Shown here: piece by piece, positions 1,438 to 29,734 of the stretch
Layout: every line of letters starts with the position of its first letter
Position numbering within the stretch: position 1 is the stretch's first letter
Origin: Asparagopsis taxiformis
Lineage: Eukaryota; Rhodophyta; Florideophyceae; Bonnemaisoniales; Bonnemaisoniaceae
NCBI GenBank assembly: GCA_030407315.1
Contig: JALQPE010000120.1
Span: forward strand, 1-38,857
Direction: 5' to 3'
Length of the DNA: 38,857 bases
Made by a program: the position numbers and the translations under genes
Notes under the pieces: model-generated
Told to the model about the DNA's origin: nothing
What the model saw: the letters and a program-made list of their open reading frames with translations, nothing else
The model's database searches: none

Positions 1438-1736
1438 GGTCGTGTGCTGCCTACATCCACGCATTGCAGAAACTAAGCCAGCGGGTTCACTACTAATACA
1501 AAGTACACGGAATATGAGTAACGTGATAGGTGAGTAGTGTTTGTGTTGAGGGAGTAAGGCGGGACCATGATGAAACAGGGAAAAAGATGTCACCCAAGCA
1601 TAACTTAGGCTTCAAGCCTGGAATCGAACCTTCGTAAGACGCGATTTTGGCTTACAGTTAGTGCTTACAGAAGCCAGTGATGGCCCCGCTCGGGGCGGCG
1701 GCCGGTTCCTGGGGCCGTTGTGGCCAAATTAGACAC

Positions 1737-1938
1737 CCTGATTTGAATTAAAATTTGGGCTATTCTCAAAAACATGCACATGTGAACATGTTTTTGAGAT
1801 GGGGGTGTGCCGTACGGCACAATCGACCGCCCAAATCGATGTTTTTTGCAATATTTTTTTGTGCCCTGAATTGTAGAATTTCTGGGCTGGCCAGCAATGC
1901 ATCTGAGCTGGACATCCACCGGACGTCCATTTCAGGTT
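1737..1938 (+). repeat. R repeat, full copy 2
   Basis: Same structure as the copy at 1237, with its hairpin at 1765-1798. It lies downstream of the 3' end of the minus-strand ParB-dioxygenase gene. The sequence after it (1939-2300) is shared with the right copy at 31096-31440. Confidence 0.9.
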
Positions 1939-2307
1939 GATCGTGTATCGTGCACGTCCACCCATTACCGGAAGCAAGTAGGCGATGAAGCACGTACAAA
2001 CCCAATTGTTCTGCTATTTCTACCATAGACCATCGAGTCTAGAGATGTGAGGGAATCGTCCTGGAAATCATGCTCCAACCCACGAGGGAATGGACAATCT
2101 AGTTTGAAAGCATGGAACGGAAGTACATTATACTAGGTTCATAGATTGAAGTGATAAAGGAGATGATTATATTCTCGATAATTGTTTACCAAAGTAGTAG
2201 TTGTTAAGCTATCTAGCCGTCGGAAAATTGTTCTTCCTCTTCGTCCTCACTATATTCAGGATCTCCCGGCAGAATAGGCGTTATCGGCAACTGTGGAGTT
2301 GAATAGC

Positions 2308-5300
2308 TCAAGATGAATTTTGACCCGGTGTGAGGGTTCTCTTCTTGGGAGCTTCTGTCGTCTTCATCCGCATGATTCCGAGCTGCCCTGTCTTCGGCCT
2401 ACGATCTTTCTTGACCGGGATGGGAACAACTGTCTTGTGGCGAACATTGACAGGTGCCGGTTGACTTTGCCTGGCAGACCGGCGCGGAGCATTGGCGATT
2501 ACTTCTTCTTCGAATCCCAACCGCCTGATGAAACCAAACGAAACATTGTCGGGAATCGGATACGACGCATTCCTGAAATACGTGTGATACCTCGTTGTCG
2601 TGTGTGACACAACTCTGTCGACATGCCCTGCCCCGGCATGTTGTACATGGCCGTGACCGATGAAGACTGAACGTGGCGGAACGATTACCTTCTTCAGCTT
2701 CATCGTCTTGGCGTACATATCTAATTCCAGCGCTTTGGAAAAGACGTACTTGTGGGACCCTGGACACACCCAGATAGGGAATGGGTCATCTCCGTTGGCA
2801 ATAACAAAGTAACCCGGAAGTTGATCTTTGCGGTCGCGAGGAGGAACAGGGAAATCATTGTGTGGGACCTGCCGAGGACACCCCTTTCCCGTTATCAAAA
2901 ACCGTCCCCCAGATGCCGGCATGACAAGTTTTTCTCCCGGTAAACCGCACTCCTCCAGCCCTATCAGCCGGACAAGGATTCCCAACCACACATCCAGCAG
3001 GGCTCGCCGCGTCACAAACTTGAACCGGTCGATATGCGTCTCATCGTTCTCGGCATAGTCAACCAGGCAGTGGCGCGTAGACGTGAAGCGAGCCCTCCCC
3101 TCATTCCGGTTCTTCTCATCTGTTTCATCGTCCCCAGTATTGACAATGGGACTCCACAGCTGCCGGTTCCCAGGGTCCTTGTGCACCTCCTCCCCCTCCC
3201 ACGTTCCCAAAAAGTACCGAAACAATTCCTGGTTAGGAATTTCTTCCATGAGACCCAAGTCAAATGGGAACTTGTCCGACGCATCGAGGTAGCTTACATC
3301 CGCGAAATTGTGCATCACCGTATACCCTCGCTCGTTGATTTCCGTTCGGCAATTGTGGAAGTACGCCATACCAGTGCCGGCCTCATACGAATCCTTCCAG
3401 CTTGTAGACATTCGCGCAACCTGGGCGAAGTCCAGCCTCGAGGGTAGAAACGTCGATGTAGGCTCACACATCGCCTTGGCAGCCATCTTCCACGCTGCGA
3501 AAAACATCGGATAGATGGTGTCGATCTCGAAAACAAGATGACGAGCCCGATGTTGTTCCGGAATATGCAGCCCCTCAAACACAGGGTCCATCGCCACTTG
3601 CTTCAAATACCTCACCTCTCTGCCCTCCTCATCGATTTCCACACTCTCCAATAACAACCTGAGCTCAATCGGGGGCAGACAGCCAACCCTCACCGATGCG
3701 ATGACGTCCGCGGGACGCTGCGCCAGATGATGCCCTTCAGCTCGGTCTTTGACTTCGAAATCGTCGGGAAGAGATGGCATCCGGTCGTCGAACAGGAGGT
3801 CGTGTTCAGAAGGAGAGTCACGAACGATGTAACCGTCTTCATCGACTTCCACTCCTTCCGGAACAGTGAATGTAATTGTCACTTCGCGGACCCCCTTGCT
3901 TTCGACTTGGCCCTCGTCTGCACCCTGTTTGTCTTCCTCGTCCGAAGCGGTATGGACAGATTCTTGGTTGGAGGGAGTCGCACCAGCACGTTGGTTATCT
4001 TGGGGGACAATCTCAACGGCAGAATCGGGGGAACGGGCGGAGTCTTCGTCAACCTCATCACCGGAAGCAGTGGCTTGTTGTTGATCGGTGGGTTTATCAA
4101 CAACGGCCTGCTCTTCTTCCCCGGCGGATTGTTGTACCACAACCGGCTCTTCTTCCTCGAGGCGTGTGCTCCCCGTCGAGCGAAGTCGCTGTGAACGGCG
4201 GCGGATGCCATGCGAAGCAGGCTCATGTTCGACATTCCGCTGCTTCTTGTGAGTGAGTCTCACATTGGCAGCAGAAGGGCGGCGTTTGCGTCGAGCCTTA
4301 GTCTTCTTCTTCAATGTCGGATTGAAAAACTCTTTCAAGTTCGTTTCCAAATCCTGTAAACGCGTGGTTCTCCGTCGCATTCGAACCTCACTGCTCCGGT
4401 CGTCCCCTCTATACATTGCAATGGCATTGGTGAGATGCCATTGCAACTCCTTCGGCTGCTTAACCGACCCAATTGCCATCTCTGTGCTCAGAAATGACTT
4501 GCGCATAATACTCTTTGGGCGCCCATACGCAGCGTACAGAGAATTTGCTATTGCAGTCACGCGACGGACGTATGTATAGAAGTCGTTCACGTCAAAGCGT
4601 CCATCCGGACGTCCACCATGAGCAGGGTTCAAGTACTCCGAAAGACCACGCAAGACGAAGACAAAGTTTTCTTCCAGCAACTCGCGCACTATCTTGTGGT
4701 CCAGGTGCGTTATCCCAATCTCGTTGCGGCGCTCGGAATTGTTCAGCTCACGCAACACTTCGTCGAGAACAGGATGCTTCAGCGTTGCTATAGCCAAACG
4801 CGTCCACCGCCGGGCCGTGTTCGTTGAATTCATCATCCCCATGAACTGCGCCTCGAACAATGTTCGGATGACATCAGACTCACGCAAGTCGCCAGCGTTT
4901 TCCACGTTATTTGCAACAGCAATCGTACGGATGAACTGCTGGATGGACGACAAGATTCGAACCAGGGAGCGCTCCGTCAGTTGCGTCCCAGTCGTATGGT
5001 TCGACTCTGCACTCTTGTGGATGATCTCATGAGGCTGAAGATCACTGTCGTCCTTGCGGCGAAGGTAGTACACATCCAGAGGCTGAGTAACCCAGCGCAA
5101 GCGGTTTGCGTCCTGTGGCAGCTTGGTTCTGTGCATACGGGTGAGGCGCGTGAAGTCATCGGCAATGCTATGCATAGCATTGAGACGATGCAGTCCGTCG
5201 ATCACGGTCACGTTCGCATTGGCATGGAATTTGCCATTCTGGAACAGACGCGTGTCGGCGGGCAGATGCGTGTTCTGCGACCTCAGCACCGTCACAGTGA

Positions 5301-6168
5301 TACGCGAAGAGCTCACATACCCCACAGCCAACATATTGTTGCGCAGGTCCTCCACGTGGTCTTCTTTCACATCCCGAAGGGTCACGGCCGGTTCCACTAG
5401 CTGCCTCACCAGCACAGTCGCTCCTTCTCCGACGTAATCCGACGTCACAAACTTGGGCACCGTAATTTGCGTCCCCTGCTGCTCACGAATGCTTTCCGCC
5501 ACCTCCGGTTCGTCGTCCACTTCGGTTACGTCCTGCGTAGTAGCTTCGGTGACGTTGGAGCGAGCAGGGTGCTTCGTGCCTCCACTGGAGGGTCTTGCAG
5601 AGCGAGCAGGGCGCTTCGTGCCTCCCGAAACCGGGACGGAGCGTGCTGGATGCTTCGTACCCCCCGAACCAGTGATTTCGCCTGCCGGACCGGTACTGGG
5701 CATCCGTCCCGAGCTGGCCTGGTTCGTCGCTGCGTTGAAGTTTGACGCTGCAGCAGGGGTACGAATGTCGCTAGGGCCATCCTCCGCAGCGGGGCGCATC
5801 ATCCGAGTATCCCAAGGGTAAAACGCCGCGGCGTATGCTCCACCCATCGTCTCCGGCGGTCCCTCGGCGCCATCAAACATGTACGGGAACGGGAGGTCCT
5901 TGAACTTGTCCTTAGTCGCAATGTTGCGCACGACGATGTAGTCGGCCTCGTCGGTTTCCGGCAGCTTGTGGTTGTGCAGCGTGCGCGGAAGGCCAACATC
6001 GCCACCAGCAGTGCTCACCGAAGCCGTCCCAATATGCACAGCCGCACCGTCCACGTCCGCAAACAAATTGACATCGACGCCGCGCTTGAGTCCGCGCGAC
6101 TCCGCTGACGCGCTCACTTGATCGCCGCAAACCGTTGAAAACAAACTGCTGAAATGCGTATCCGCCAT
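2308..6168 (-). CDS. ParB-like domain fused to a 2-oxoglutarate/Fe(II) dioxygenase-like domain
   Basis: The predicted protein has 1286 residues from the ATG at 6168. The open frame extends 40 codons upstream, but MADTHFSS is the natural start and is conserved in the right copy. Residues about 168-204 hold three degenerate copies of SGGTKHPARS. Residues about 236-420 look like a ParB/sulfiredoxin-fold domain, with the signature DGLHRLNAM at 324-332. Residues 600-660 are very basic and 670-800 acidic, probably disordered. Residues about 820-1215 look like a double-stranded beta-helix dioxygenase: H1103-N-D1105 as the HxD iron motif, H1177 as the distal His, and R1193 as a possible 2-oxoglutarate ligand. 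ParB-like domains bind or cut DNA, and 2OG dioxygenases can oxidise bases or proteins. A DNA- or chromatin-oxidising role is inference. The protein carries no transposase domain. R repeats flank the gene on both sides. Confidence 0.8.
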   Translation of the reverse strand: MADTHFSSLFSTVCGDQVSASAESRGLKRGVDVNLFADVDGAAVHIGTASVSTAGGDVGLPRTLHNHKLPETDEADYIVVRNIATKDKFKDLPFPYMFDGAEGPPETMGGAYAAAFYPWDTRMMRPAAEDGPSDIRTPAAASNFNAATNQASSGRMPSTGPAGEITGSGGTKHPARSVPVSGGTKRPARSARPSSGGTKHPARSNVTEATTQDVTEVDDEPEVAESIREQQGTQITVPKFVTSDYVGEGATVLVRQLVEPAVTLRDVKEDHVEDLRNNMLAVGYVSSSRITVTVLRSQNTHLPADTRLFQNGKFHANANVTVIDGLHRLNAMHSIADDFTRLTRMHRTKLPQDANRLRWVTQPLDVYYLRRKDDSDLQPHEIIHKSAESNHTTGTQLTERSLVRILSSIQQFIRTIAVANNVENAGDLRESDVIRTLFEAQFMGMMNSTNTARRWTRLAIATLKHPVLDEVLRELNNSERRNEIGITHLDHKIVRELLEENFVFVLRGLSEYLNPAHGGRPDGRFDVNDFYTYVRRVTAIANSLYAAYGRPKSIMRKSFLSTEMAIGSVKQPKELQWHLTNAIAMYRGDDRSSEVRMRRRTTRLQDLETNLKEFFNPTLKKKTKARRKRRPSAANVRLTHKKQRNVEHEPASHGIRRRSQRLRSTGSTRLEEEEPVVVQQSAGEEEQAVVDKPTDQQQATASGDEVDEDSARSPDSAVEIVPQDNQRAGATPSNQESVHTASDEEDKQGADEGQVESKGVREVTITFTVPEGVEVDEDGYIVRDSPSEHDLLFDDRMPSLPDDFEVKDRAEGHHLAQRPADVIASVRVGCLPPIELRLLLESVEIDEEGREVRYLKQVAMDPVFEGLHIPEQHRARHLVFEIDTIYPMFFAAWKMAAKAMCEPTSTFLPSRLDFAQVARMSTSWKDSYEAGTGMAYFHNCRTEINERGYTVMHNFADVSYLDASDKFPFDLGLMEEIPNQELFRYFLGTWEGEEVHKDPGNRQLWSPIVNTGDDETDEKNRNEGRARFTSTRHCLVDYAENDETHIDRFKFVTRRALLDVWLGILVRLIGLEECGLPGEKLVMPASGGRFLITGKGCPRQVPHNDFPVPPRDRKDQLPGYFVIANGDDPFPIWVCPGSHKYVFSKALELDMYAKTMKLKKVIVPPRSVFIGHGHVQHAGAGHVDRVVSHTTTRYHTYFRNASYPIPDNVSFGFIRRLGFEEEVIANAPRRSARQSQPAPVNVRHKTVVPIPVKKDRRPKTGQLGIMRMKTTEAPKKRTLTPGQNSS

Positions 6169-6442
6169 GATTGTTGAGTTGGAAAGTAAAAGAGATGGTT
6201 GACGTTGACGTATTCGAGTGATGTGGATGGTAGGTTTCACGTTGCTTGAAGAATGGTCGTGAACGCCAATCGCTGGAAATAATAACACAATACAACCGAA
6301 ATTTTGTTAGGTACACACCTATCGTGACCGCTGGAATGCAAGACAGGCAATCGAGATGTGAGTGTCCGTTCGGAACGGGCCCGAGTCGGGCTCTCGAAAC
6401 CTGACGAGGTGGCGTGAAGCAGGCAGTGTCCTTGATGTGTAA

Positions 6443-6717
6443 TGTGTTAAAATTACAGCTGTCAAGCTAGGCGGCTTTTGGGGCGGCTGCGAGCACCCCT
6501 TTATCCGGGGAACACCCTGATTTGAGTTAAAATTTGGGCTATTCTCAAAAACATGCACATGTGAACATGTTTTTGAGATGGGGGTGTGCCGTACGGCACA
6601 ATCGACCCGCCCAAATCGTTGATTTTTGCAAGATTTTTTGTGCCCGAAATTTTAGAATTTCTGGGCTGGCCAGCAGTGCAATCGAGCTGGACATCCACCG
6701 GACGTCCATTTCAGGTT
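6443..6717 (+). repeat. R repeat, copy 3, with extended outer flank
   Basis: Core R is 6516-6717, with its hairpin at 6544-6577. The preceding 6443-6515, containing AATTACAGCTGT, AGCTAGGC and GCGAGCACCCC, matches the reverse complement of 12763-12836 next to the inverted R copy. It lies about 270 bp upstream of the ParB-dioxygenase start codon and may belong to that gene's 5' region. Confidence 0.85.
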
Positions 6718-7018
6718 GATCGTGTGCTGCCTACATCCACGCATTGCAGTAACTAAGCAGGCGGGATCACTACTAATATAAAGTGCACGGAATATGAGTA
6801 ACGTGATGGGTGAGTAGTGTTTGTGTTGAGGGAGTAAGGCGGGACCATTATGAAACACGGAAGAAGATGCGTACCTAGCATAACTTAGGCTTGAAGCCTG
6901 GAATCGACCCATCTTTCGGCGCCATTTAGCCTTACAGTTAGTGCTTACAGAAGCCAGTGATGACCCCGCTCGGGGCGGCGGCTCCGGTTCCTGGGGCCGT
7001 TGTGGCCAAATTAGACAC

Positions 7019-7220
7019 CCTGATTTGAATTAAAATTTGGGCTATTCTCAAAAACATGCACATGTGAACATGTTTTTGAGATGGGGGTGTGCCGTACGGC
7101 ACAATCGACCCGCCCAAATCGATGATTTTTTACAATTTTTTTGTGCCCGAAATTTTAGAATTTCTGGGCTGGCCAGCAGTGCAATCGAGCTGGACATCCA
7201 CCGGACGTCCATTTCAGGTT
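7019..7220 (+). repeat. R repeat, copy 4
   Basis: Full-length R with its hairpin at 7047-7080 and the 14-bp palindrome conserved. It begins 503 bp after copy 3, so copies 3-5 form a short tandem array upstream of the ParB-dioxygenase gene. Confidence 0.9.
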
Positions 7221-7416
7221 GGTCGTGAGAGAGTGAGGCGGGACCATGATGGAACAAGGACCAAGACCTGTCCCTGGCGTATTGAGCCTGAAATTGACCC
7301 TTCGTCAGACGCCATTTAGCCTTACAGTTAGTGCCTACAGAAGCCAGTGACAACCCCACTCGGGGCGGCGGCCGGTGCCTGGGGCCGTTCTGGCCAAATT
7401 AGACACCTTGATTTGA

Positions 7417-7572
7417 ATTAAAATTTGGGCTATTCTCAAAAACATGCACATGTGAACATGTTTTTGAGATGGGGGTGTGCCGTACGGCACTTTCGACCGC
7501 CTAAATCGATAAAATTTTGCAATTTTTTTCCTGCCCGAAATTCTACAAGTTCTGGGCTGGCCAGTAATGCAT
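7417..7572 (+). repeat. R repeat, copy 5, 3'-truncated
   Basis: The hairpin (7435-7468) and GTGCCGTACGGCAC are intact, but the copy stops after CTGGCCAGTAATGCA and runs into unrelated sequence. The same truncation point and following sequence are seen at 36360, so the break predates the duplication of the long repeat. Confidence 0.85.
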
Positions 7573-8061
7573 TAGCTATCTCCTCTAAACCGATTCTAAC
7601 AAGCAGAAAGAATCCTCTCCTTCATGACGATGCTCTCCATCGTCTTTTCGAAGCCATTTCCGTACGAAAAATAATCGAAAAACATATTTGACTTTAACCT
7701 AACAGCTATCGCGAGCACCGTACTCAGCTATATTTCCTCTGTAATTTCCTTCCTCCAACCAATCAATAGCCGCTTGGTCACAGGCTTAAAAGCCTTCCAC
7801 TATCTGTCCTATCCATCGAAGACCCTCGGAGGGTTCGATCCAGGCCTTGATCACCCATGATGGGTGTGCAACCCGAGAAAATGAAAATGGAACATATTGC
7901 GACAGGGACGAGATATCATTCCATGAAAGAGAACTTCTCTTTCGTTTACTTTTTTCTAACAAGATTCTAAACGTCTACAAACCCTATGTCGTCCGTCCGT
8001 TTTCATCCCGGAGAGATGTGGATGTGAGGTAAGACGCAGTGGTGATGTTGTGTTGATTCCC
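7573..8061. other. Intergenic, no supported gene
   Basis: Up to 7802 this is shared with 36361-36634. From 7803 it is unique in the window. There is a 61-codon open frame at 7847-8032 with no recognisable features. A GTAAGA...CACAG pair at about 8030-8066 could be a very short intron, but joining across it does not give a convincing protein. Confidence 0.5.
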
Positions 8062-8305
8062 ACAGACGGAGGTGGAGGAGGTGGCTACGGAGGAAGCCTG
8101 GAGAACTTGTCCGGTACTGACATCTCACATGTTGCCATTAACGGAGGTGGTGGAGGAGGCTATGGTGCAAGCCTGGAGAACATGTGACTCACATCTCGCA
8201 GATGTCAGTACCCATGGATGAGAAGAAAAGCATGTTGAGGTGCGGTTCGGATATTCGATCCATTAACGGAGGTGGTGGAGGAGGCTATGGTGGAAGCCTG
8301 GAGAA
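8062..8305 (+). repeat. Three copies of a glycine-rich coding-like repeat
   Basis: Units start at about 8062, 8137 and 8262. Each reads as a run of six glycines, then Tyr-Gly-(Gly/Ala)-Ser-Leu-Glu. The first two share one frame, which ends at a TGA after the second. The third is in a different frame. It looks like the remnant of a gene for a glycine-rich protein or a coding minisatellite. I do not recognise the source. Confidence 0.55.
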
Positions 8306-8601
8306 GAATAGAGTAGTCCTATACCCATGGATCACAAGAAGACGTTGTTGGGCTCCTTTTCGAAGCCCATTCGTCTCTTGAATAAATTTAGCACCCAAAT
8401 CATATACGATTGCCGAGTTGACACCCCGTATGTCTCGTTGGTAGAAATAGCAGGGGTTCCACCACTCAGCTGGCGGGAAGTAGTTACTGATTATATGAGA
8501 TATGGCTTAGCTCCCGCCAAAACCGATAGCTCTGGGCTCAGGTTCTCCAAATGTGGTTATACGAATGTGTTCTGACAATGCTAGAAGACGAATATCTGCA
8601 T
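8306..8601. other. Intergenic, nothing recognised
   Basis: No gene, palindrome or repeat stands out between the glycine-rich repeats and R copy 6. The last bases, GAAGACG followed by TCCTGATTT, resemble the outer flank of the inverted R copy at 12762, with about ten extra bases. Confidence 0.4.
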
Positions 8602-8782
8602 CCTGATTTGAATTAAAATTTGGGCTATTCTCAAAAACATGCACATGTGAACATGTTTTTGAGATGGGGGTGTGCCGTACGGCACAATCGACCGCCCAAA
8701 TCGATGTTTTTTTGCAATATTTTTGCTGCCCGAAATTGTAGAATTTCTGGTCTGGCCAGCAATGCATCTGAGCTGGACATCC
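8602..8782 (+). repeat. R repeat, copy 6, left of the methyltransferase-SET gene
   Basis: Hairpin at 8630-8663 and GTGCCGTACGGCAC conserved. Homology to R ends after GAGCTGGACATCC. With the inverted copy at 12561-12762 it brackets the methyltransferase-SET gene as an inverted pair. Each copy starts about 350 bp before or ends about 430 bp after the coding region. Confidence 0.85.
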
Positions 8783-9132
8783 CCATGTCCAGTGGCCGTC
8801 CGGATGTCGCTCACCTGGTAAGCGTGATGCACCTGTGACAACCTATGTGACTGCAGTCACAGCCGCCATGGCGGCCGTGCAGTACAACCCTCAAAGACAG
8901 GGAATCACAATCTTTTTAAAATTTTTGTCTACCACGTATCCGTCACAACTTATTACCTACACCGGTTACGGGTTTCAAGACCTTTCCAGTGCTGTGTACC
9001 CGTATACTCTGTTCCGTTCGATATCAACCAGTGTTCCTCACGAAAGAGTGCAAACGTCACGAGATACGTCGTCAAATTTGACTGTCTCGCCGAGCGGTCG
9101 CCATCCTGTACCGAATTTCCACTCATTCCATT

Positions 9133-12100
9133 ATGACGAATAAGCGCAGGCGCAACAGCAATCCGATCGTTGACGACGCAACCGTGCCAATTCTGCGCGA
9201 ACCCGCTAGCCCTTGGGAGGATTCTAGTGACATGGGTACACGTCGAAACGTAGGTCGCGCCGCCCGCGAAACTACTCTCGCTGGCAAAGACTTCCTCCGC
9301 CTCTTGCTGGATTTGTTCGCCCACTCAAGTTTCGCAGACTTGACGGACAAGCCGGGAGGTTTCACATACGCGGACCTTGGCGCTTGGGTTGCGCAGGGCA
9401 CGGAAGAACAATTTCTGGCGCTGCAAGGTCGACTCAGCATGGCCTTCAGCGGTCGTTCGAAGAATGCTGGAGTCGAGGCGGATGTTGCCGAAATCGTCAT
9501 GGCAGAGATGAACGTTGAGCGAGCCAAGCAGATTGTTCGTCTGGCATTACCGATTGCCGAGTTTTCAAGACAGGATGAGCGTATCGGGCAATGGGTTGAG
9601 CACTGCATCCTTTCTGGGATCGTGCCGCAGACCTTCCTTATTGGATGTAACATGCTTCCTTCGCCACTACAGGCGCCGCAGCGCGGGGAACCAAGCGCCT
9701 TCGTTCTTGCTCCACCGGAAACGTTCGAGGTATTGATGTATTTCCAAGCGTTGTCTATCATCCGAAATCACAACAAGAACCTGCCGCGTCGCCGAATAGG
9801 CGACGCGGCCGAGGAGGGGAACGAAGCCGCACGCGTCCCAGCCCATCGGAAAAGCACTAATCGAGCTTGTTACGTGGTTCAAGTTTTATACCATGCTTGG
9901 ACCGATGTGGCCTTCGCCGCAAAGTTTTCCAGCTTCGAAGAGTTGATGGCGCCGTACATCATTTTCGACAGCAGTGAGCATTGGTTTGACGTGCTCGATG
10001 AAGGTCTATTCGCACCGATGGAGCAGAAGCTAGATCTCTACCACGACAAAGCTCCCCTATCTCATCCTGATGGATATGGTGGAAAAGTAGAGACAAGAAC
10101 CAGTGCGCAGCACAGTGCATTTAGGGACCTTGTGAGGAAGTTCTTCGACCGGTTGCAGTTTCTTATCGTCAACCCGGACCTGTACACCTGGCCGGAGTCC
10201 GACCGCTGGGGGGCGCTGGAAATATACTTGTCAAGCGGAAATCCGGACAAGCTGCCAGCGTACTTTGACACCCTCGACGAAGACGTTATGGCTGTCCTCC
10301 GCCCGGCACCACAAGCCGCGGACGCAGAAAAGGTCCCCAAGCCGGTTGATGACACTCCCACTCGTCGCAACACAGGAGGGAGAGGTTTGGTTCCGTCGAC
10401 AAGACACACAACCAGGCTTCAACTTGGACCTGGGAGGACCAGTCTTACTGCCCAAGGGCCGTCTCCCCCGTCACCGTCACCCCATGCGACAGAAGAGCAG
10501 GAAAGTGAAGGGCAGGCTCTCGCAAAGGACTTTCTTTCGAAAATGAGTCAGTATTGCCGGGTGTACGACGTCCCTTTCGAAGATTTGGTCAGTGCCGACG
10601 AGAGCCGAGAACACGTGCCCATCACGGGCAACGTTCAGCTCATTCTGACTGATCCGCCCTACAATGTTCGTCGTAAGAGGAACGATTCCAACTCTTCGTA
10701 CGACAGGCTAACTGCAGAAGATATGCAGGCTAGCATCGAAGTGTTTGACGAGCTGTTGCGCCCCGGTGGCCACGGCATCGTGTTCTGCTCCGTTTTGCAG
10801 TTCTACGAATGGTTCCATTACTTGGAAACGTACAAAGGACCGCAGTCAGAAGGCCCAACCGATGCTGCTGCCAGTGATGACGGGTCGGATGAAGAAGAGG
10901 TTACGTCCATGAATTCGGACTCCGAAGCATCGCAGCACAGTGGCGAAGAAAGTGCGGATGAGGAGGAGGAGGAGGACGAGGAGGAGGAGGACGTCGTTCG
11001 GAATTCAGTTTTCTTCGTTGACGAGGTACCTCTGTTGTTTGTCCGACTACCTGGGCACCTCTATCAAATGCCGGGGCGGAAGAGGTACCAACGCATGAAC
11101 ATGGCAGAGGTCGCTATCCACTTCTGGAAGCGAGGTGTTCCGTTCAAGACTGGAAGCGAGATGGTGGCCTATAGGAACCACGGATACATGGACGGCACGT
11201 ACCCGGCGTGGTGCAACGTCACCATCAATATGCCCGCCATCGATTCGAATGAGATGGTGTGGCGAACAAGGAGCACAACCGGTGCTACGGTCAGAGTTCG
11301 TGCAGAGCAGAAGAGCGTCGCTCTCATGATGGAGTTGATCAGCCAGCATTCACAGCCTGGTGATATTGTTGTCGATCCATTCTCTGGCACTTTCGCAACG
11401 GGAAAAGCAGCTATGAGCTTGCCTGAGCACCGTGTTTTCGTCGGCAGTGACATGGACAAATTGTGTGTGGCACGATCGCTTCCAAAGCTGTGTGCAGTCA
11501 TGTCACGTGTAATTCTTTCAAACAACACTGACATGAGGGTCACGACAGAAGCGAAACAGAGTGCTGAGAAGTTCTTGGCGTCCCCCTCTGTCACGATGCG
11601 TACGCAGAGGGAACGCAGGATCATCGAACCCCCACCTGGCCTTCCCCTGTACCAGAGGTTCCCGAAATATATTCGGCAGTACCTCTGGCAGCTGTGCCCA
11701 GAGTCGATTGCGTCGCACGAGCACATGGAAAAACCGGTACATTATTGGCCACCTTCCCTGCGCCGCTGGTTGCAAACTGAAAACCCTCGCGTGATGCGGG
11801 CACACGATTGTGTTGCGAAAAAATTGAGCGTTCGACCATCGCTGATTAAGCATCCAAATGCAGGAAGAGGGCTCTTCGCTGAACAGACATTTAATGTTGG
11901 CGACGAAGTATGTGCATACTACGGAACTGTTGTGTACTCTGATATGAGCAAGGAGTCGATGAGGTTCGCGTACGGAGAGGGTCACATGGCGATAACGAAG
12001 GAAACATTCTTGATGTATGCCATCAAGCTGTATGCAACAGCGGAGGACGACGAAAACATCGAGCATCCAATTTGGATTGTTCCGGCTCCGTTCTGTTCGG

Positions 12101-12336
12101 CGCAGTTCATCAACGACCCGCGGTATTTGCGAGGTGAGGACACTCCGGCGGAAGACACCAGGCGGATGGCCAACGTCGAGTTTGTCGAGAACTACAGCAG
12201 CGGTTCGACGGGGAAGAAGCTCAAGGCGAAGGACCTAGAAAATCCGAAGATCATTGTAGTACGTGCAATCCGCGATATCCGTCCGGGGCAGGAGCTCTAC
12301 GTTCATTATGGGACAGCGTTTAGAGCATGGAATTAG
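9133..12336 (+). CDS. DNA methyltransferase (N6-A/N4-C type) fused to a SET domain
   Basis: The predicted protein has 1067 residues in one open frame from the ATG at 9133. Residues 1-400 are helical and unrecognised, and 400-460 are Pro/Ser-rich. Methyltransferase motif IV DPPY is at 507-510, followed by Asn. The SAM-binding motif DPFSGTFATG begins at D748. The order IV then I matches the beta-type arrangement of amino-methyltransferases that act on adenine N6 or cytosine N4. An acidic insert (about 575-618) separates the two. Residues about 907-1064 look like a SET domain: GRGLF near its start, FINDP with N994 in place of the usual RFINH, a later ANVEF, and GQELYVHYG with Y1059. SET domains methylate lysine. 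One protein could therefore mark both DNA and histone or transposase lysines; that dual role is inference. It has no transposase domain. R repeats lie on both sides in inverted orientation. Confidence 0.85.
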   Translation: MTNKRRRNSNPIVDDATVPILREPASPWEDSSDMGTRRNVGRAARETTLAGKDFLRLLLDLFAHSSFADLTDKPGGFTYADLGAWVAQGTEEQFLALQGRLSMAFSGRSKNAGVEADVAEIVMAEMNVERAKQIVRLALPIAEFSRQDERIGQWVEHCILSGIVPQTFLIGCNMLPSPLQAPQRGEPSAFVLAPPETFEVLMYFQALSIIRNHNKNLPRRRIGDAAEEGNEAARVPAHRKSTNRACYVVQVLYHAWTDVAFAAKFSSFEELMAPYIIFDSSEHWFDVLDEGLFAPMEQKLDLYHDKAPLSHPDGYGGKVETRTSAQHSAFRDLVRKFFDRLQFLIVNPDLYTWPESDRWGALEIYLSSGNPDKLPAYFDTLDEDVMAVLRPAPQAADAEKVPKPVDDTPTRRNTGGRGLVPSTRHTTRLQLGPGRTSLTAQGPSPPSPSPHATEEQESEGQALAKDFLSKMSQYCRVYDVPFEDLVSADESREHVPITGNVQLILTDPPYNVRRKRNDSNSSYDRLTAEDMQASIEVFDELLRPGGHGIVFCSVLQFYEWFHYLETYKGPQSEGPTDAAASDDGSDEEEVTSMNSDSEASQHSGEESADEEEEEDEEEEDVVRNSVFFVDEVPLLFVRLPGHLYQMPGRKRYQRMNMAEVAIHFWKRGVPFKTGSEMVAYRNHGYMDGTYPAWCNVTINMPAIDSNEMVWRTRSTTGATVRVRAEQKSVALMMELISQHSQPGDIVVDPFSGTFATGKAAMSLPEHRVFVGSDMDKLCVARSLPKLCAVMSRVILSNNTDMRVTTEAKQSAEKFLASPSVTMRTQRERRIIEPPPGLPLYQRFPKYIRQYLWQLCPESIASHEHMEKPVHYWPPSLRRWLQTENPRVMRAHDCVAKKLSVRPSLIKHPNAGRGLFAEQTFNVGDEVCAYYGTVVYSDMSKESMRFAYGEGHMAITKETFLMYAIKLYATAEDDENIEHPIWIVPAPFCSAQFINDPRYLRGEDTPAEDTRRMANVEFVENYSSGSTGKKLKAKDLENPKIIVVRAIRDIRPGQELYVHYGTAFRAWN

Positions 12337-12367
12337 GGTCACGAAAGATGTTTTCATTTCGACTACA

Positions 12368-12373
12368 AATAAA
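12368..12373 (+). promoter_or_regulatory. Possible polyadenylation signal AATAAA
   Basis: AATAAA occurs 32 bp after the TAG of the methyltransferase-SET gene, in an AT-richer stretch. This is the expected place for a eukaryotic cleavage signal. A single hexamer is weak evidence alone. Confidence 0.35.
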
Positions 12374-12560
12374 GCTACGTTCCAGAGTTGAAGTATATCA
12401 TATAATGCAGCATGTCCAGCCACCATTACTCCAGGGTGAAACCTATTGAGCAGTACTCGCCTGTCAAAAACCAATCGTTCACACTCTAGGTGCACTTCGT
12501 CCGAGCAGTGAACCTGACTGCTTGGATGCTGTTATGCGTGCAGATGCAAAATACACGACC

Positions 12561-12836
12561 AAGTTGAAATGGACGCCCGGTGGATGTCCAGCTCAGTTGC
12601 ATTGCTGTCCGGCCCAGAAATTCTACAATTCAGGGCAGAAAAAAATATTGCAAAAAACATCGATTTCAGCGGTCGATTGTGCCGTACGGCACACCCCCAT
12701 CTCAAAAACATGTTCACATGTGCATGTTTTTGAGAATAGCCCAAATTTTAATTCAAATCAGGACGTCTTCCGGACATAGGGGTGCTCGCGGCCTAGCTCT
12801 ACAGCTGTAATTGTACCTCATTAAATACTGTTGATG
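12561..12836 (-). repeat. R repeat, copy 7, inverted, with extended flank
   Basis: Core R is 12561-12762 in minus orientation, with its hairpin at 12701-12734. The outer flank 12763-12836 matches the reverse complement of 6443-6515. The copy lies about 160-430 bp upstream of the coiled-coil gene start, with the same orientation relative to that gene as copy 3 has to the ParB-dioxygenase gene. Confidence 0.85.
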
Positions 12837-12995
12837 ACTGCCTACCGTATACAATCTGGGCTGTTGGCGTATTATCCGGTACTTGACCTGACCTGAACGT
12901 TCATCGCAGACCGTTGTGGTTACCGACACTATACAGCAATCTTTTTTGTATCTCGTGCAACTCAATCGTTCCATCGCTTCCGGGAAAGCTTCATT

Positions 12996-15279
12996 ATGCC
13001 GCCGCGTATTGCGAAGAAAGCTCCAAAGCCTCCGGGCCTCCAGAAAACCCGGTCAGCAGCTGCTGTATCGAGTGCCCGACAATCCCGTGCGAAGAAGCGG
13101 TCTGGGCCTACCGGCAGCATTGAACCGCGGTCCGGTAGTCGCAAGACGGACCGGCGCAGAACTGGGGATCCGCAGCGAGAAAGTGAGGAAGGAGGAACGG
13201 CGCGGAGAGAGATGGGGCTTGACCGAGGCAAGCGTGCTCGCAGGGACAGTGAACATCATGATGATGACATGATAGTGGCTCAAAACATGTTGGAATTGCG
13301 GCAGAGTGCTATGGCAAAGGTAGTTCCTCCCGGGTTGGCAGATGCGGAGGTGCTGCAGACGGAGTCCCAGCCGGGGGTTCCGAGACACTGGAGGCTGTGA
13401 CCCCCACTGCGCCAACTATGCCGAGTACATCAGCCCCAGCAGGTAATGCAGTCAGGGACCCGAGGATAGCGGCAAGGGATGTTGTTTCTGAGCAACGTTC
13501 ACAGGATGCCAACTATCATCGGCGGTCAGGTGGTACTGAGGGGAGAGAGCAGCCGGAGTGCGGGCCTCGTCACAACAGACTGTCATTGGTGCCAAATATG
13601 CGCGTAACGCCCCCGCGACGTCAGGCTATTGGCGATGGAGGACATCATATTCCCGATAGCGTGGGAGATGGGGGGACGGTGAGGGCAGAGAGGTTGCATC
13701 CGCCGGAATCCATCGATTTAATGGCGAGTCGCATCAATGCGCAGAAGAAGAAGATCGCGGAGCTGGAAAAAAAGTGTTTAGCCAGGACATAGCAAACAAG
13801 GCGCTCACCACGGAGATAGTTGCGTTGGAGGCTAAGGTGAAGACTCTGCAGGCGGAAAATGCCAGCCTTACTGCAATTGCGAGAACAGGTAGAATCAGTG
13901 ATCACGGTGGCGGTAAGTCGAAAATACAGAAAGCCATTCCTGTGAAATACCTTGGAGTTCTTAGGGCGGTTGAGGAAAACCTGACAAAGTGGTGCAAGAA
14001 CGAGACTATGGAGCTGGACCCTATAGCGGAACAAACGCAGAGACGTTGGACTGGACGTACCATCGAGGTAGAGCCGGTAGAAGGGGCACTTTGGAGCGAA
14101 AACGGTGTAGGATATATTGCTACCCCTCCGGGCTATATCATCAAGAATCTGCAGTGGTATACACCTTCGTACAGGGACGAGAGTGATCTGCTGAATGACT
14201 TGGTGCGACACGTACTGCGTCAAAGTCCGTGGTGTGATGTGTTTTCCGATGAGGAGCAGCGTGTGTGCTGTCAAGAGGCTGTGGCGGGGAGCAAGGAATT
14301 GAAAGTGAAGGTGACGCAGAAACTGTCCGACGTGATGAGTGCACGGAAGCGTAATGCGAGGGACAGATTGTTCGGTTCGCTGGGGTACACGAAATTAATG
14401 TCTAGATGCACGATGCTGACGACGCGAGCTGAGATGGACGAGCGAGAGGAACAAAAGCGCGAAGCGTCTGAGAAGCTTTTGAAACGGGAAAGTAACGGTG
14501 ATTTGGATATGGGGAGGTGGCGAACGGCACCGTTCTCAGAGCTGCGATACAGCAAAGGCTTGGTTCCTGACAGCTTCGAAATGGAAGTGAATGGTGATGC
14601 ATGGTTTAACAACCGAGTAGCTGTGAATGTGCTGGACATCTTCAGGGGTTATTCGATACGACCAGAACAAGTAATGGACATAGAGACGAGCATACTAACG
14701 CTGGCGCGCCTGGATGCTTGGCTAGTGACTACTGTGGAGTGTTTGGATGAACCGAAGGGGAAAGGAGGTGCACGGCAGAAGGAGTTTACAAGGCGGTACA
14801 GTCAATATGTGGGGGTAGCTTTTCAGCAATTAGTTGGTATGGTGGTGTACTGCATGTCTTGTCTCCAAGGCTCGCAAGCAAGGGAAGAAACGGACGTTGT
14901 CGAGAGCGAACAGCGGACTAGTGCACAGTCACGGCATGTGTTTGCAAGCCGTACTGTGACGAGAGAGGCTGTTGAAGTGTGGCAAAGCGGAGAGGGGTCT
15001 GGAATTGTTCATGTCGTTGATGATGTAAACCGCTGCTCATCACTTGTTCTAGTGTCCGAGGATTGGATTCAATCGCATATTACGTCAAACCTCGGTGCTG
15101 TAATGGATTGTGTGATTGCGCAAGGACTAATTGGCGCAGAACTTTTCGTCGTTGACCCATATGCTGGACACCTGAGTGCAAACCTGAATGTCGAAATCAA
15201 TGCCCCACAGTATGGGGGCATGGAGCGGCGCCATGCAGCCACTGCTGATAACGGTTTTGGCGTAATGGAGGATGGTTGA
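12996..15279 (+). CDS. Coiled-coil protein of unknown function, read in three frames
   Basis: I do not recognise a family. Reading starts at the ATG at 12996 with a Pro/Lys/Arg-rich N-terminus (to about 13370). It then moves to a second frame through ETLEAVTPTAP (stop at 13790-13792), and to a third frame from 13774 to the TGA at 15279. Both changes are in the -1 direction. At the second, the heptad pattern IAELEKK|VFSQDIANKAL continues without a break across A_AAA_AAG (13768-13774). This could be programmed -1 frameshifting or loss of one A from a run of eight. Residues after the coiled coil (about 480 codons) are mixed alpha/beta, with several Trp and Cys but no catalytic motif I can name. 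The gene converges on the Plavaka transposase gene with a 77-bp gap and may be its accessory partner. Confidence 0.6.
13768..13774 (+). promoter_or_regulatory. Candidate -1 frameshift heptamer A_AAA_AAG
   Basis: In the upstream frame the bases fall as A AAA AAG, the X_XXY_YYZ register needed for tandem slippage. After a -1 slip the next codon is GTG at 13774, which opens the 501-codon downstream frame and keeps the heptads in phase. I cannot identify a downstream pseudoknot by eye. An A-run deletion would look the same. Confidence 0.4.
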
Positions 15280-15356
15280 AATTAGTGCAGTAAATGTGAC
15301 GTTGACTAGAAGGTTTATCATGTAGTACATTATCAATAGAGTGCTGCGATTTAGAT

Positions 15357-18300
15357 TTATTCTTCTTCATTATCATCTGTGAATTGGTAATCAGTGTTGG
15401 TGTAGAAGCGGTTGAGATAGAAACGGTGGTCCGACCAGTGCATTTGTTTCGTAAATGGCTTGACTGGAAAGTTACTTCGTACGATGTGCACGGTGCCAGA
15501 TATAGTAGATGCAGGAATGAGGTCAAACCAAGGACCACCTGCACTGTGGGATGCAGTGTCATTGCTGTCAACGGATCCGTTGTCCGGGTCCCATGTGGAC
15601 CACTTTAAACAAATGCACCCAAGTGATTTTTCCACAGCGGTTTTTGGGGCAAAGCAGGTCATATACTGAACGAAAGCGAGTTCTACAGGTTGAAACAGGT
15701 TTGGAGACTGCAGGCGTACCAGTGCCAGGACGCGCCCTACCCATATGGTTCTGTAGTCATCGGCAGTTCCGGAGATGACGACAAAGGAGTACTGCGATCT
15801 CTTTGCGGGGCCGAACGATGAAGTTGCAAAGACGCGCTGCTGCTTGTGCCTCGACACGTTTGTGGGGCGAAGCATGCCACTGTGCGGGTCAAAGTCGTCG
15901 GCATCTGGGACGTACCCTCCCATGACGTAGGCGGACTTTACCACGGTGACGGAAATGTCCATGTCATGTATTGGAGGGCCTTCTGCCGTGGCGCGCAGTC
16001 TAGCGAGGGTGAGGAACGCTTGTGCAGCTGTGTCACCGAGTTGCTGGAATAGCGTTATGGTGCCAGACGGGAACGAGGAGTTGTGCAGAGGCAAAAGAGT
16101 GGCAGGATCGGGCTGTCCGTCGATATCTGCAACGAGGAGGGTTGCATCGGGCAGCAGGGAGGCAAAGTCGTGCAGTGCAACGGTGAATCCGTCGCGAACG
16201 AGTACTGCACCGTCTGTGGGCGATATCATGCGTGCGTTTCCCAATGTGTTCGATGGGGTATGACCAGTTGGAGTGGCCAAGGAGAATTCCATGTGGCGAA
16301 TAGTCTCTTCCATGGCTGTGGAGCGCCTTCGAGAGGTTTTCCTATAACTCTGTTTGAACAGAAGATGCGAGTGTTCGTAGGGGCCTGCATCAATGTGTTC
16401 CAGGGCGCCATATCTCTGCAAGTCACCGGGAAGATGGTCTAGAAGATGGAACTTGAAAGTTTTGAGACCTGTGGTGTGGAATGGGCCGAGGGTGGAGAGC
16501 ATTGATTGTTTGAAATAGGAAATGGAGTTCTGGAGGCTTTCTAGTTCGGCGGCAGTCCAGTGCTTGATGCGACCGCGTTTCATGACCCATGCGACGAGGT
16601 CAGAGTATTGCGTGCAGATGGAAGTGAGGGGGGCTGTATCTACTTCGTCACAGCATGTGTCAATGAATGCTGCGATGAAAGGGAACACCATGTCGACATG
16701 GTGATAGTCTTTGGCTGCGAGCATGCCGCGTATGCCGTCCTCCGTGAAGAGGCCGTTCAAATTGGTGCCCTTCTCACCCTTGGAGAAGTCGACATGAAGA
16801 CCGGTGATGTAGTAGTCGCGTTCGATAGCGGACAGAATGCTGTTTGAGCCGGCGAGGATGGATTTTTTCACCTTCTTGAAGGTGCGAGGTGTCCCGGAAT
16901 GGGAGGCAGTGGTGGTGAGGTCTGGGGAGCTGAGGCGGTGGACAATGCACTGTTTGATGAGCTTTGAGATGCCGAGGTGGAGATTGTGCAGAGGCTCGAA
17001 GGAGAAAATGTTGTAGGGGTCTAGGGGACTGTTGGTGGGTAAAAGAGCGGTCGATTCGAGGACAGAGTGTTGTTCGAGGAGGGAGAGAGCTTCGAGCGGA
17101 GCAGTTGTATGCTCCTGAGCGCTCTCTTGGCGTGCAGAGCGTGTATCATCGAGGGAGCGGGGCTGGTGTGGCGCGCTGGATTCAAGTTGAGTGGCGGGGA
17201 TGTAGCAGCGGTGGCAGGGATGTGTGGTGGTAGTGCTGTTGCGAGTGCATGACAGCTCTTTGGCCTCTGGAAAGTCGCAGCAATAATTGGCTAGGATGGG
17301 AAAGCATTGGCGGGCAGTTGCAGTGGAGTCTGTGCAGGGGAACCCGGAAGAGAACGCGGTGGATAGGGACGAAAACACTTTTTCGAGTGCTTTATGAAGA
17401 ATATCAATTTTGCGAGCGCGACTAGCAGAACTAGAGGTTGTCGGCATTTCATCACCGAACAAGGCGTTGGACGAAGGGTTAACAATGTACGGAAGATACC
17501 CGACGATGGTGAGGCCGGTACGGATGCAGTGGCGACGGAGGGGGGCGGAGAAGTTGAGCAGTGTGACGTGTATGGGGTATGCGACGATTGCGGAGCTCTT
17601 GAGGCTTGTGCTGCTCTTGTCGGAGTACACTTGGAGGAGGCCGGCAAAGGAGGAAGCGGTGGGATCATTTTCCTCTGCCCATACGACCTGTGGATCTTCC
17701 GAGAGCTGCACGCGCTGTCTAGTAACCTGGTGCAGCGTTTTCGCGAATTCTGTGTGTAGGGGATGAGAAAATATTGCGGTGCCGTCTGGGGCGGTCTGTG
17801 GGGAGGGGTGGAAGAGAGTATTTTGGTCGTTAGCCAGTGCTAACTGCCTGCGGAGCATGTCGACTGGGTCGCGGAGGTACAGCTGTGCCGAGTACTTACC
17901 AGTTTTGTCTGGAATGATGTGGCTCTTGTAACCTTCGGTGCGGAAATGTGTTTCGACCATGGAAGCGGTAACGTGGCGACATTCTTCTACGGTGCGAACG
18001 GCGCTGTTGAACTTTTCTAGGGAGAATGCGGGGTCTTGTAGGATGGTGATGACTTCGCTCACGCGGCCAGCGCCGGCCTTGTACTCGAGGGTTGTGAGAC
18101 TGGCGGCGAGGGATTGCACGAGGAGGTCTGCGCGGGAGGGGGTTGAGGTTGGTGGCAGTGAAGCGTCACAGGGTGAGTCGCTGGAGGAAGCACGACCAGA
18201 TTCTGGGTCTGGGGAGCTGGGTTGCGGGGAATCATGGTCGCCGTTTCGAGCAGGCTCATGGGTGACGGCAGGGACACGAGCGTTGTTGAAATGTTGGGGA

Positions 18301-18395
18301 GAGGGGTTGAAACGGTAGCGACACGTTCGCTCATGCAGCGCGAGCGCATAAGCATCTACGCAGTAGTAGAAGCACCCTTCATACTTGCATTCCAT
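15357..18395 (-). CDS. Plavaka-type transposase (KDZ-related superfamily)
   Basis: The predicted protein has 1012 residues with no frame breaks, starting at the ATG at 18395. The N-terminus is a C2HC zinc finger (C3, C8, H21, C25), followed by a Ser/Pro-rich linker to about residue 90. The transposase core shows VYSDKSS with the first acidic residue D259, then an AYPIHVTLLNFS stretch and TIVGYLP. Next come a cysteine knuckle (C372, C373, C383, C394, C397) and FEPLHNLHLG at 466-475. HLLDHLPGDLQRYG is followed by GPYEHSH with E674. This order matches Plavaka transposases known from fungi and other eukaryotes. Such enzymes cut and paste DNA in the nucleus. The conserved middle acidic position appears here as Glu (E467) rather than the Asp I would expect. 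The gene is convergent with the coiled-coil gene. Confidence 0.85.
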   Translation of the reverse strand: MECKYEGCFYYCVDAYALALHERTCRYRFNPSPQHFNNARVPAVTHEPARNGDHDSPQPSSPDPESGRASSSDSPCDASLPPTSTPSRADLLVQSLAASLTTLEYKAGAGRVSEVITILQDPAFSLEKFNSAVRTVEECRHVTASMVETHFRTEGYKSHIIPDKTGKYSAQLYLRDPVDMLRRQLALANDQNTLFHPSPQTAPDGTAIFSHPLHTEFAKTLHQVTRQRVQLSEDPQVVWAEENDPTASSFAGLLQVYSDKSSTSLKSSAIVAYPIHVTLLNFSAPLRRHCIRTGLTIVGYLPYIVNPSSNALFGDEMPTTSSSASRARKIDILHKALEKVFSSLSTAFSSGFPCTDSTATARQCFPILANYCCDFPEAKELSCTRNSTTTTHPCHRCYIPATQLESSAPHQPRSLDDTRSARQESAQEHTTAPLEALSLLEQHSVLESTALLPTNSPLDPYNIFSFEPLHNLHLGISKLIKQCIVHRLSSPDLTTTASHSGTPRTFKKVKKSILAGSNSILSAIERDYYITGLHVDFSKGEKGTNLNGLFTEDGIRGMLAAKDYHHVDMVFPFIAAFIDTCCDEVDTAPLTSICTQYSDLVAWVMKRGRIKHWTAAELESLQNSISYFKQSMLSTLGPFHTTGLKTFKFHLLDHLPGDLQRYGALEHIDAGPYEHSHLLFKQSYRKTSRRRSTAMEETIRHMEFSLATPTGHTPSNTLGNARMISPTDGAVLVRDGFTVALHDFASLLPDATLLVADIDGQPDPATLLPLHNSSFPSGTITLFQQLGDTAAQAFLTLARLRATAEGPPIHDMDISVTVVKSAYVMGGYVPDADDFDPHSGMLRPTNVSRHKQQRVFATSSFGPAKRSQYSFVVISGTADDYRTIWVGRVLALVRLQSPNLFQPVELAFVQYMTCFAPKTAVEKSLGCICLKWSTWDPDNGSVDSNDTASHSAGGPWFDLIPASTISGTVHIVRSNFPVKPFTKQMHWSDHRFYLNRFYTNTDYQFTDDNEEE

Positions 18396-18992
18396 GTCGA
18401 GTTTTGACGCAAAAGGGAGGATTGCGAGCTGAACAGGGGAGACTGTGCCGTCCAGATGCGACCAATTTTATTTTTGTGGTGCTTTCGAGACTTGGAATGT
18501 AACGTGTTCGTAGTTTTTTGGGTAGTAGTTTTGTGCTCACTCCAGCTGACATCCCAACGGTGGAATTTAACCGAGAGTTCAATCATTTCCAACTGTTACA
18601 TCACATTGCGTGCTGGCAACGTGTGCATGGAAGGACGAACGACTGCCCTGGGAGATGAATTTTCAATTAATTCATTTGTAATAATAAACTTTTTTATTTC
18701 CAAACTTCGTGGAATCTGAATGTGCTTTACAGCGGATATGCCACGGATCATGTAAGGAAAGCAAATGGATTCTCATATATATGATTATATGTTTATATTC
18801 GTTGTTCTCGATCCGGATCTCATTGTTCGGGGAATCAGAGACCATGGCTTGGGCCATACTCAATCTCACTGCCGGCGATGATTTCGAGTATGCACAGCAA
18901 GACTTAAGCGGACGCAGAAAGCTGTCCGGTCGACGCCGCAGGCTCCACTCCGCCCTCATCACCGACTGATCTTCTTTGACCGACTTTGCTTT
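18396..18992. other. Upstream region of the Plavaka gene, no firm gene
   Basis: AT-rich around 18670-18810, so it may contain the minus-strand promoter. A plus-strand open frame at 18844-18969 would encode about 41 residues ending in an Arg-rich segment (GRRKLSGRRRRLHSA). It could be a short exon leading into the array at 19058, but I have no homology for it. Confidence 0.35.
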
Positions 18993-19030
18993 GTACGTGC
19001 GCGAATCTTGATCAAGATTCGCGCACGTAC
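18993..19030. repeat. Perfect 38-bp palindrome
   Basis: GTACGTGCGCGAATCTTGA is followed immediately by its exact reverse complement, with no loop. It could extrude as a cruciform or bind a dimeric protein. It sits between the Plavaka gene region and the repeat array. Confidence 0.95.
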
Positions 19031-19057
19031 CTTCGTTCCATCCTCTACCCTCGAGGG

Positions 19058-20110
19058 TATGCGTTGAGGGAAGCGTGGGTTTTGAGTCTGACTATTTCCG
19101 TTGATGCGATATTTTTCATGGGAAGCCTGTTGACTGATGGTGTGTATTGAGCGGAGGATGGAAGAGAGGTACGTGAAGTTTTGAAAGTATGCTGTGAGGG
19201 AAGGTTGATTTTGAGTCTGACTGTTGTGGTTGATTCCGATGTTGTGTAGATGATGCAGGAATGTTGATGACGGAAGGTAAGTTTCATTGAGTGCCAAGAT
19301 GTGCTTTGCGAAGATATGGACTGCTGACTATGATTATTGTTATTGCAAGGTTTTTGGATCATGGTTTGTATTGTGTGTAGGATGGATGAGAGGTACATTT
19401 GCGAGTTCTCAGGGTATGTAGCGAGGGAAACGTTGGTTTTCAATCTGACTGTTGCGATTGAATCCGATGTTGCGTAGGTGATGGAGGAATAGTGATGACG
19501 GAAGGTAAGTCACATTGGGCGCCCAGACCGGTTGTGCGAAGATGCGGAATGCTGACTACTTTTCTTGGCTACACGATTACGTGATTTATGGTTTTTATTG
19601 TGTGCAGGATGGAACAGGTAAGTAAGTGTGCGAGTTTTGAAAGTAAGCAGCGAGGGAAGGTTGGTTTTGAGTCTGACTATTTCCGTTGATGCGATATTTT
19701 TCATTGGAAGCCTATTGAGTCATGGTGTGTATTGTGTGGAGCGAAGGTAAGTGTGCGAGTTTTGAAAGTATGCTGTGATGGAAGGTTGGTTTTGAGTCTG
19801 ACTGTTGTGGTTGATTCCGATGTTGTGTAGATGATGCAGGAATGTTGATGACAGAAGGTAAGTTTTACTGAGCACCAAGACTTGTTTTGCGAAGATATGG
19901 ACTGCTGACTTTGATTATTCATTGCAAGGTTTTTGGATCATGGTTTGTATTTTGTGTAGGATGGATGATTCAGTCATCCTCTCGGAGAGGTAAGTAAGGG
20001 AGTTTCTAGGATATCTGTCGTGGTAAGCGTTGCTTTTGAGTCTGACTGTTGTGGTTGATTCTGATGTTGTGTATGTGATGCAGGAGTGGTGAAGCAGGAA
20101 CGGCAGGACT
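19058..20110 (+). repeat. Degenerate tandem array with splice-site-like signals
   Basis: About six units begin near 19058, 19188, 19411, 19643, 19768 and 20011, each containing TTGAGTCTGACT or a close variant. Spacing alternates between about 125-130 and 220-245 bp. In three long units a 27-nt segment (19250-19276, 19478-19504, 19831-19857) is preceded by TAG and followed by GTAAGT. A second segment starting GATGG (19381, 19608, 19960) follows TAG or CAG and precedes GTA. These look like microexons. I find no long coding frame, and other readings are possible. Confidence 0.6.
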
Positions 20111-29704: not shown

Positions 29705-29734
29705 CGTACCCGACCTGCTCCACCCCTCCCTCCC

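Follow-up and report, generated by a model that had tools for sequence, protein, structure and literature searches.

Why would a mobile element of a eukaryote encode enzymes predicted to modify DNA and chromatin next to its own transposase? This question is raised by contig JALQPE010000120.1 (C120) of the red alga Asparagopsis taxiformis (GenBank assembly GCA_030407315.1), whose entire length of 38,857 nucleotides (hereafter the window) was analyzed together with searches of the genome (141 Mb, 3,156 contigs). An initial annotation of this DNA had proposed four genes belonging to one element family, and all four open frames were found where it had placed them: a ParB-like/2-oxoglutarate (2OG) oxygenase protein (gene A), a DNA amino-methyltransferase-SET fusion (gene B), a predicted coiled-coil protein (gene C), and a Plavaka-type transposase (gene D). 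We lean, by a little more than even confidence, towards the reading that this is one Plavaka-type DNA transposon of 20–22 kb, with 34-bp ends and four genes in a fixed order, whose enzymes are likely to modify its own DNA and chromatin and thereby keep it expressed and mobile. The termini, gene order, recurrence in dozens of near-identical copies, and Pfam assignments are observed, and the modeled fold of one domain of gene A is oxygenase-like.

Common ends and a fixed gene order

The window holds two copies of the element. Copy 1 (1..21106, plus strand) is collinear with the copies in three other contigs and has an exact right end, its left end lying beyond the contig start, while the left part of copy 2 (28992..38857, plus strand) contains a gene A split into several matching pieces. 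Comparison of repeats and ends placed the right terminal inverted repeat of copy 1 at 21073..21106 (minus strand) and the left one of copy 2 at 28992..29025 (plus strand), each 34 bp long. Both element ends are 34-bp inverted repeats, CGTCTGTGTTYTCGGAARTGGACGCGGACGTCCA, with single-base differences in some copies, and the boundary, CGTCTGTGTT..AACACAGACG, is the same in every end read. Both flanks were fetched for three further copies (C2192, C1754, and C2038, the C1754 sequence stopping short of the left end), all of which are collinear with the window across gene A, the internal R repeats described below, gene B, gene C, and gene D. Homology stops on the left at the base equal to window position 28992 (C2192 and C2038) and on the right at 21106 (all three), with unrelated DNA outside, giving copy lengths of 20.0 kb (C2192) and 21.7 kb (C2038). 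When candidate ends were scored (the best 40 of 912 and the best 40 of 822), matches on the same contig, if they belong to one copy, would span 22.5 kb in C138, 11.1 kb in C12, and 29.1 kb in C100. The pair in C12 (264414-275483) probably marks an internally deleted copy.

Genome-wide gene counts refer to the best-scored candidates only and are therefore lower bounds biased to the best copies. At least 42 copies of gene B (best of 4,143 candidates) extend across all 1,084 residues and at least 35 copies of gene A (best of 4,674) across at least 1,329 residues, none of them with a stop, and the Plavaka transposase has at least 123 matches (best of 1,208). Spacing is constant in contigs that carry two listed genes, which come from these best-scored lists rather than from a sample of all copies. 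The distance from the transposase to gene B, which has the opposite orientation, is 4,629–4,640 bp in 10 of the 11 contigs common to both match lists; from the transposase to gene A it is 10,650–10,657 bp in five of five such contigs, and genes A and B are separated by 1,885–2,778 bp in 11 of 11 contigs listed for that pair. In addition, 1.2 kb at the expected gene A site was inspected for 17 further gene B copies, 16 of which have gene A with 98–100% identity (the match in C430 covering only half of the stretch), and the remaining one, C2131, has the left end of the element there instead. Gene A is therefore present in 24 of 25 gene B copies examined, namely those of the window, the three fetched contigs, the 17 stretches, and C474, C434, C2660, and C2525, where gene A and gene B matches are listed side by side. 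Of the 42 listed gene B copies, 17 stand outside this count; one of these, C221, has the 5′ part of gene A within 1.5 kb.

The same genes at fixed spacing within the same inverted repeats at other loci bear out the proposal of one element family carrying the whole set. The initial annotation had named, as the finding that would speak against it, genes lying apart with different terminal repeats elsewhere, and this is contradicted by the recurring order and common ends. Given so many near-identical copies, the family looks recently active. The spacer between genes A and B was seen in at least three forms, a compact one (L013, L015, L033), that of the window, and one with a break or insertion near 8134; stretches around window positions 7638-8134 were noted in L014, L019, L022, L028, L030, and L034-L037.

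Several observations weigh against one intact, simply inserted element. No consistent target-site duplication, which in the Plavaka A and B lineages would be of 2–3 bp, was found, with matching flanking dinucleotides, read by eye, in only one of four two-end copies (C12, TT/TT; compare C100, TG/TA; C2192, CT/CA; C2038, TC/TG). The constant CG could be the duplication, or there could be none, or the assembly could have joined ends from different copies. The left flank of C2192 matches a retrotransposon integrase and its right flank, read by eye, is not the continuation of that sequence, so that this pairing of ends may be chimeric in the assembly. C430, the eleventh contig above, has its listed Plavaka match away from the expected place, which was itself not inspected. 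Breaks affect gene A in C1754, C2038, and copy 2; the transposase gene is split into four pieces in C1754 and into two in C2038, and that of C2192 is almost complete. C2131 is without gene A, which means that gene A is not needed for the existence of that copy. This contig (L046) carries a deletion derivative, in which the element's left end, a few kb ahead of the methyltransferase gene, stands in the place of gene A; it may be viewed as a natural control copy.

Such flanks, which do not fit simple insertion, together with the repeat-rich character of the contig, are what could be expected if a Plavaka transposon had merely nested beside unrelated repeats and the ensemble had been spread by segmental duplication. 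However, the inverted repeats frame exactly this gene set, which recurs with the same spacing in contigs whose flanks differ, and the differing flank DNA starts at the same base in every end read, which contradicts such a pile-up and makes it very improbable.

Proteins encoded by the element

Gene B occupies an open frame at 9082-12336 (plus strand), or 9133..12336 from its first Met (residue 18 of P0002). Both domains of the proposed fusion were confirmed by Pfam matches above curated cut-offs: N6_N4_Mtase (residues 518-793; 10633..11460, plus strand) with an E-value of 3.1e-15, and SET (residues 928-1077; 11863..12312, plus strand) with an E-value of 1e-6 and 29.6 bits against a cut-off of 22.4, over the full profile (1-105 of 105). 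In the SET motif NH is usual, and gene B has FIND at that point, which counts against the reading given above. In the methyltransferase, DPPY (524) precedes DPFSGT (765), which is the permuted beta order, and Protein Data Bank (PDB) matches include DpnA and CcrM. According to PMC8885841, bacterial N6-adenine enzymes have DPPY and most N4-cytosine enzymes SPPY; by this rule, N6-methyladenine (6mA) is the likelier predicted product of gene B. A search for relatives in other species returned only a cluster with 99% identity. Because this search drew on residues 1–500, which do not include the methyltransferase-SET part, absence elsewhere is not implied.

Among copies of genes B and A, nonsynonymous variants are fewer than expected. 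In 30 copies, drawn from the 42 best by protein score, no indel was present and the 14 variable sites comprised 10 synonymous and four nonsynonymous ones (expected nonsynonymous fraction 0.77, p = 1.4e-4). Variable columns amount to 0.4% in gene B versus 2–5% in its non-coding neighbors, each of which also has gapped columns. For gene A, 20 copies chosen by position beside gene B (plus copy 2) were compared with the window copy and yielded 37 synonymous and 48 nonsynonymous variants (expected nonsynonymous fraction 0.76, p = 4e-5). However, these deficits are weaker under a transitions-only expectation (gene B, fraction 0.67, p = 0.004; gene A, p = 0.04), and picking gene B copies by protein score biases them towards few amino-acid changes. 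Small gene A indels in C618, C2513, C1706, C1754, C2038, and copy 2 may be decay or assembly error.

Gene D (open frame 15357-18467, minus strand; 15357..18395 from the first Met, residue 25 of P0004) is a Plavaka-type (CMC/CMCT superfamily) transposase as annotated, matching PF18759 with an E-value of 1.7e-24 and 87.1 bits against a cut-off of 26.3. It has CHRC at 418 and HLLDH at 674, candidates for the C(2)C and H(3-4)H motifs; the framing DDE residues were not located.

Gene A is an open frame of 1,332 codons (2308-6306, minus strand; 2308..6168 from the first Met, residue 47 of P0001). A credible Pfam match was found neither for it nor for any of the 13 members of its family, and the proposed fusion of ParB with a 2OG dioxygenase stands in part, with a predicted PhyH-like oxygenase fold on one side and a ParB part indicated by motifs and a weak profile match on the other. 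In the ParB-like region (residues ~285-450; 4957..5454, minus strand), R311, DGxHR at 370-374, and N436 are identical in 13 of 13 family members. Alignment of this region by hhalign with a profile of nine plasmid ParB proteins gave only a weak match (E 0.01, probability 4%), ten controls, six of them column-shuffled, giving E-values of 0.11-0.81. The ParB assignment is further weakened by comparison with a single RepB protein (E 0.37), which did not score better than unrelated proteins (E 0.063-0.62), and by Pfam and full-profile comparisons in which nothing for ParB rose above chance. When PDB sequences were searched with the profile of gene A, two matches to a bacterial toxin binding domain (E 0.59 and 0.60) came up and were rejected as due to chance.

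The oxygenase domain (residues 905-1275; 2482..3594, minus strand) has the residues of an HxD...H...R arrangement. H1149, D1151, H1223, and R1239 (P0001 numbering) are all present in 11 of 13 members, P0009 being cut short and P0018 having A for D. Modeled alone using 13 sequences, the domain is predicted to adopt a PhyH-like fold, a prediction tempered by Foldseek TM-scores of just 0.3-0.4 by query length; a model of residues 280-1290 from four sequences (pLDDT 35) was discarded. PDB chains labeled TET or JBP did not appear among the best 50 matches listed per search, which does not exclude TET/JBP. In a viral structure library the model matched viral 2OG/PhyH-type proteins and no further family was gained. 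In viral contigs relatives could be confirmed neither for gene A nor for gene B, and a search of phages and plasmids with P0008 gave no relative save a chance match (E 8). P0007-P0018 form a family of large ParB-like/PhyH-like proteins without a Pfam model, and some of their contigs, which reach 21 kb, might show further elements.

Gene C was annotated as a coiled-coil protein. Its open frame (13660-15279, plus strand), coiled-coil-like in sequence, is indeed there, its residues being present without gaps in three other copies, but its Pfam matches to coiled-coil families are at chance level. A longer version with a basic N-terminus before the coiled-coil-like part (12997..15279, plus strand) would begin at a likely ATG at 12997. 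The frame from this ATG runs on without a stop to where the fetched sequence ends in four of 30 copies and meets an earlier stop in the other 26, including the window copy, where it ends before 13660; an intron or a break in the gene could explain the early stop.

Repeats between the genes and near the ends

The window contains nine direct 184-nt copies of the R repeat and an inverted one (I1). Copies lie at 1234..1417, 1734..1917, 6513..6696 (upstream of gene A), 7016..7199 and 7404..7587 (between genes A and B), and 8599..8782 (upstream of gene B), all on the plus strand, and at 12518..12768 (I1, minus strand, upstream of gene C). They flank gene A on both sides and also precede genes B and C. 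The initial annotation was right about their existence, but they are intergenic rather than terminal, the ends being the 34-bp inverted repeat. A hairpin-like stretch of 34 nt is present in 10 of 10 R repeats and the perfect palindrome TGTGCCGTACGGCACA in nine. The motif GGACGTCC, which is part of both terminal repeats, also lies 3–4 bases beyond the 184-nt unit in four R repeats of copy 1 (longer repeat families D2 and D4). It occurs eight times in 1-21106, against an expectation of 0.39 based on 100 base-composition shuffles, seven times in copy 2, and not once in the 7.9 kb separating the two copies. R repeats may be internal control or loading sites.

Near the right end lies a subterminal array of 7.2 copies of 43 bp (20673..20981, plus strand). 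Between the transposase gene and this end, positions 18990-20110 carry degenerate repeats of ~228 bp with GTAAG- and GCAG-like edges, which look like a series of small exons or like repeats in decay. The C-rich left arm (28992-30868 and 1-1150), in which no conserved reading frame was seen by eye in five copies (two of them partial), may represent a leader or a gene in decay. The DNA that separates the two element copies includes the integrase-chromodomain frame of a Ty3-type retrotransposon (21328-23037), and a related integrase adjoins the left end of C2192.

Relation to known transposons and possible roles of the cargo

Among the titles and abstract openings listed in searches of open-licence PubMed Central papers, no description of a DNA methyltransferase-SET fusion and an oxygenase on one transposon came up. 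Partial precedents exist. Retrotransposons carrying cytosine methyltransferases were reportedly described by de Mendoza in 2018, and there, as here, a mobile element codes for its own DNA methyltransferase; those enzymes are of the C5 type, and we know of no SET domain or oxygenase on such elements. A close parallel is provided by DNA transposons of fungi that carry TET/JBP oxygenases, Plavaka elements among them (Kojima 2025, PMC12730594). The TET-carrying families, including Plavaka B, share with the present element the combination of a CMC-type DDE transposon and a 2-oxoglutarate oxygenase, whereas the oxygenase here gives a PhyH-type match, has an N-terminal ParB-like part, and is accompanied by a methyltransferase-SET fusion. 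Plavaka families are described there from Agaricomycotina, with the termini TGT..ACA (PlavakaA) and CATCA..TGATG (PlavakaB); the ends here, CGTCTGTGTT, begin with neither CATCA nor TGT, the first TGT starting at base five. Amoebidium, too, is reported to have a Plavaka transposase (PMC11244446); there, unlike here, the cargo of the giant repeats consists of tandem gene clusters, many coding for tyrosine recombinases. Transposon-coded SET proteins are likewise known from HarbingerS and MuDR of Phytophthora (cited in PMC12730594) and from oomycete Helentrons (PMC4067079), but these are other transposon classes in other hosts and, in the passages concerned, their SET lacks a fused DNA methyltransferase. 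As in gene B, N4CMT of bdelloid rotifers combines a permuted beta-type bacterial amino-methyltransferase with a eukaryotic chromatin domain (PMC8885841), yet N4CMT is a host gene with an SPPY-type (4mC) enzyme and a chromodomain reader, whereas gene B is of the DPPY type, has a SET domain, and resides on a high-copy transposon.

The initial annotation had supposed that the element might control its own chromatin or time its transposition. In the reading that we favor, the Plavaka transposase would act on the subterminal 43-bp array and on the ends that the copies have in common, while the DPPY-type methyltransferase would write N6-methyladenine on element DNA and the fused SET domain would methylate lysine on nearby histones, thereby coupling a DNA mark and a histone mark in one polypeptide. 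The ParB-like part might direct the oxygenase to the intergenic R repeats, which are rich in palindromes and where it could remove or alter a host silencing mark. The net outcome would be anti-silencing, comparable to the proposal for TET/JBP-carrying fungal transposons, whose oxygenase is presumed to counter silencing (PMC12730594).

Other roles for the same enzymes have to be considered. The joint travel of a transposase, subterminal repeats, and a DNA methyltransferase would also suit a transposon with genes captured by chance, whose enzymes serve its own DNA metabolism, such as marking excised DNA or timing replication for transposition, rather than chromatin silencing. In bacterial Dam-controlled transposons 6mA marks donor and target strands, and the same role can be imagined here. 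We regard this as unlikely, since the fused SET domain suggests that nucleosomes are the target, not naked DNA, and R repeats occupy intergenic, promoter-like positions and not just the ends. Conversely, the methyltransferase-SET protein might repress its own element by writing silencing marks on DNA and histones and so limiting the number of copies, in analogy to the proposal for N4CMT and SETDB1 on rotifer transposons; PMC8885841 does connect transposon silencing with H3K9 methylases and a bacterial-type amino-methyltransferase. However, N4CMT is a host gene and gene B is element-coded, and the numerous near-identical copies suggest recent activity, so that self-repression appears quite improbable.

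A more far-reaching version of the anti-silencing reading is conceivable, although we consider it doubtful: a self-contained chromatin-programming transposon, in which gene B writes DNA and histone methylation and a ParB-type clamp loads the oxygenase on parS-like R repeats to oxidize a silencing mark. If this were true, the element would take its own heritable chromatin domain with it from site to site. Transposons with a single epigenetic enzyme are known, and a methyltransferase-SET fusion together with an oxygenase-fold protein in a high-copy family would make self-marking by a mobile element directly testable. The genome of A. taxiformis has copies with and without gene A, so that modification maps could be compared within one genome.

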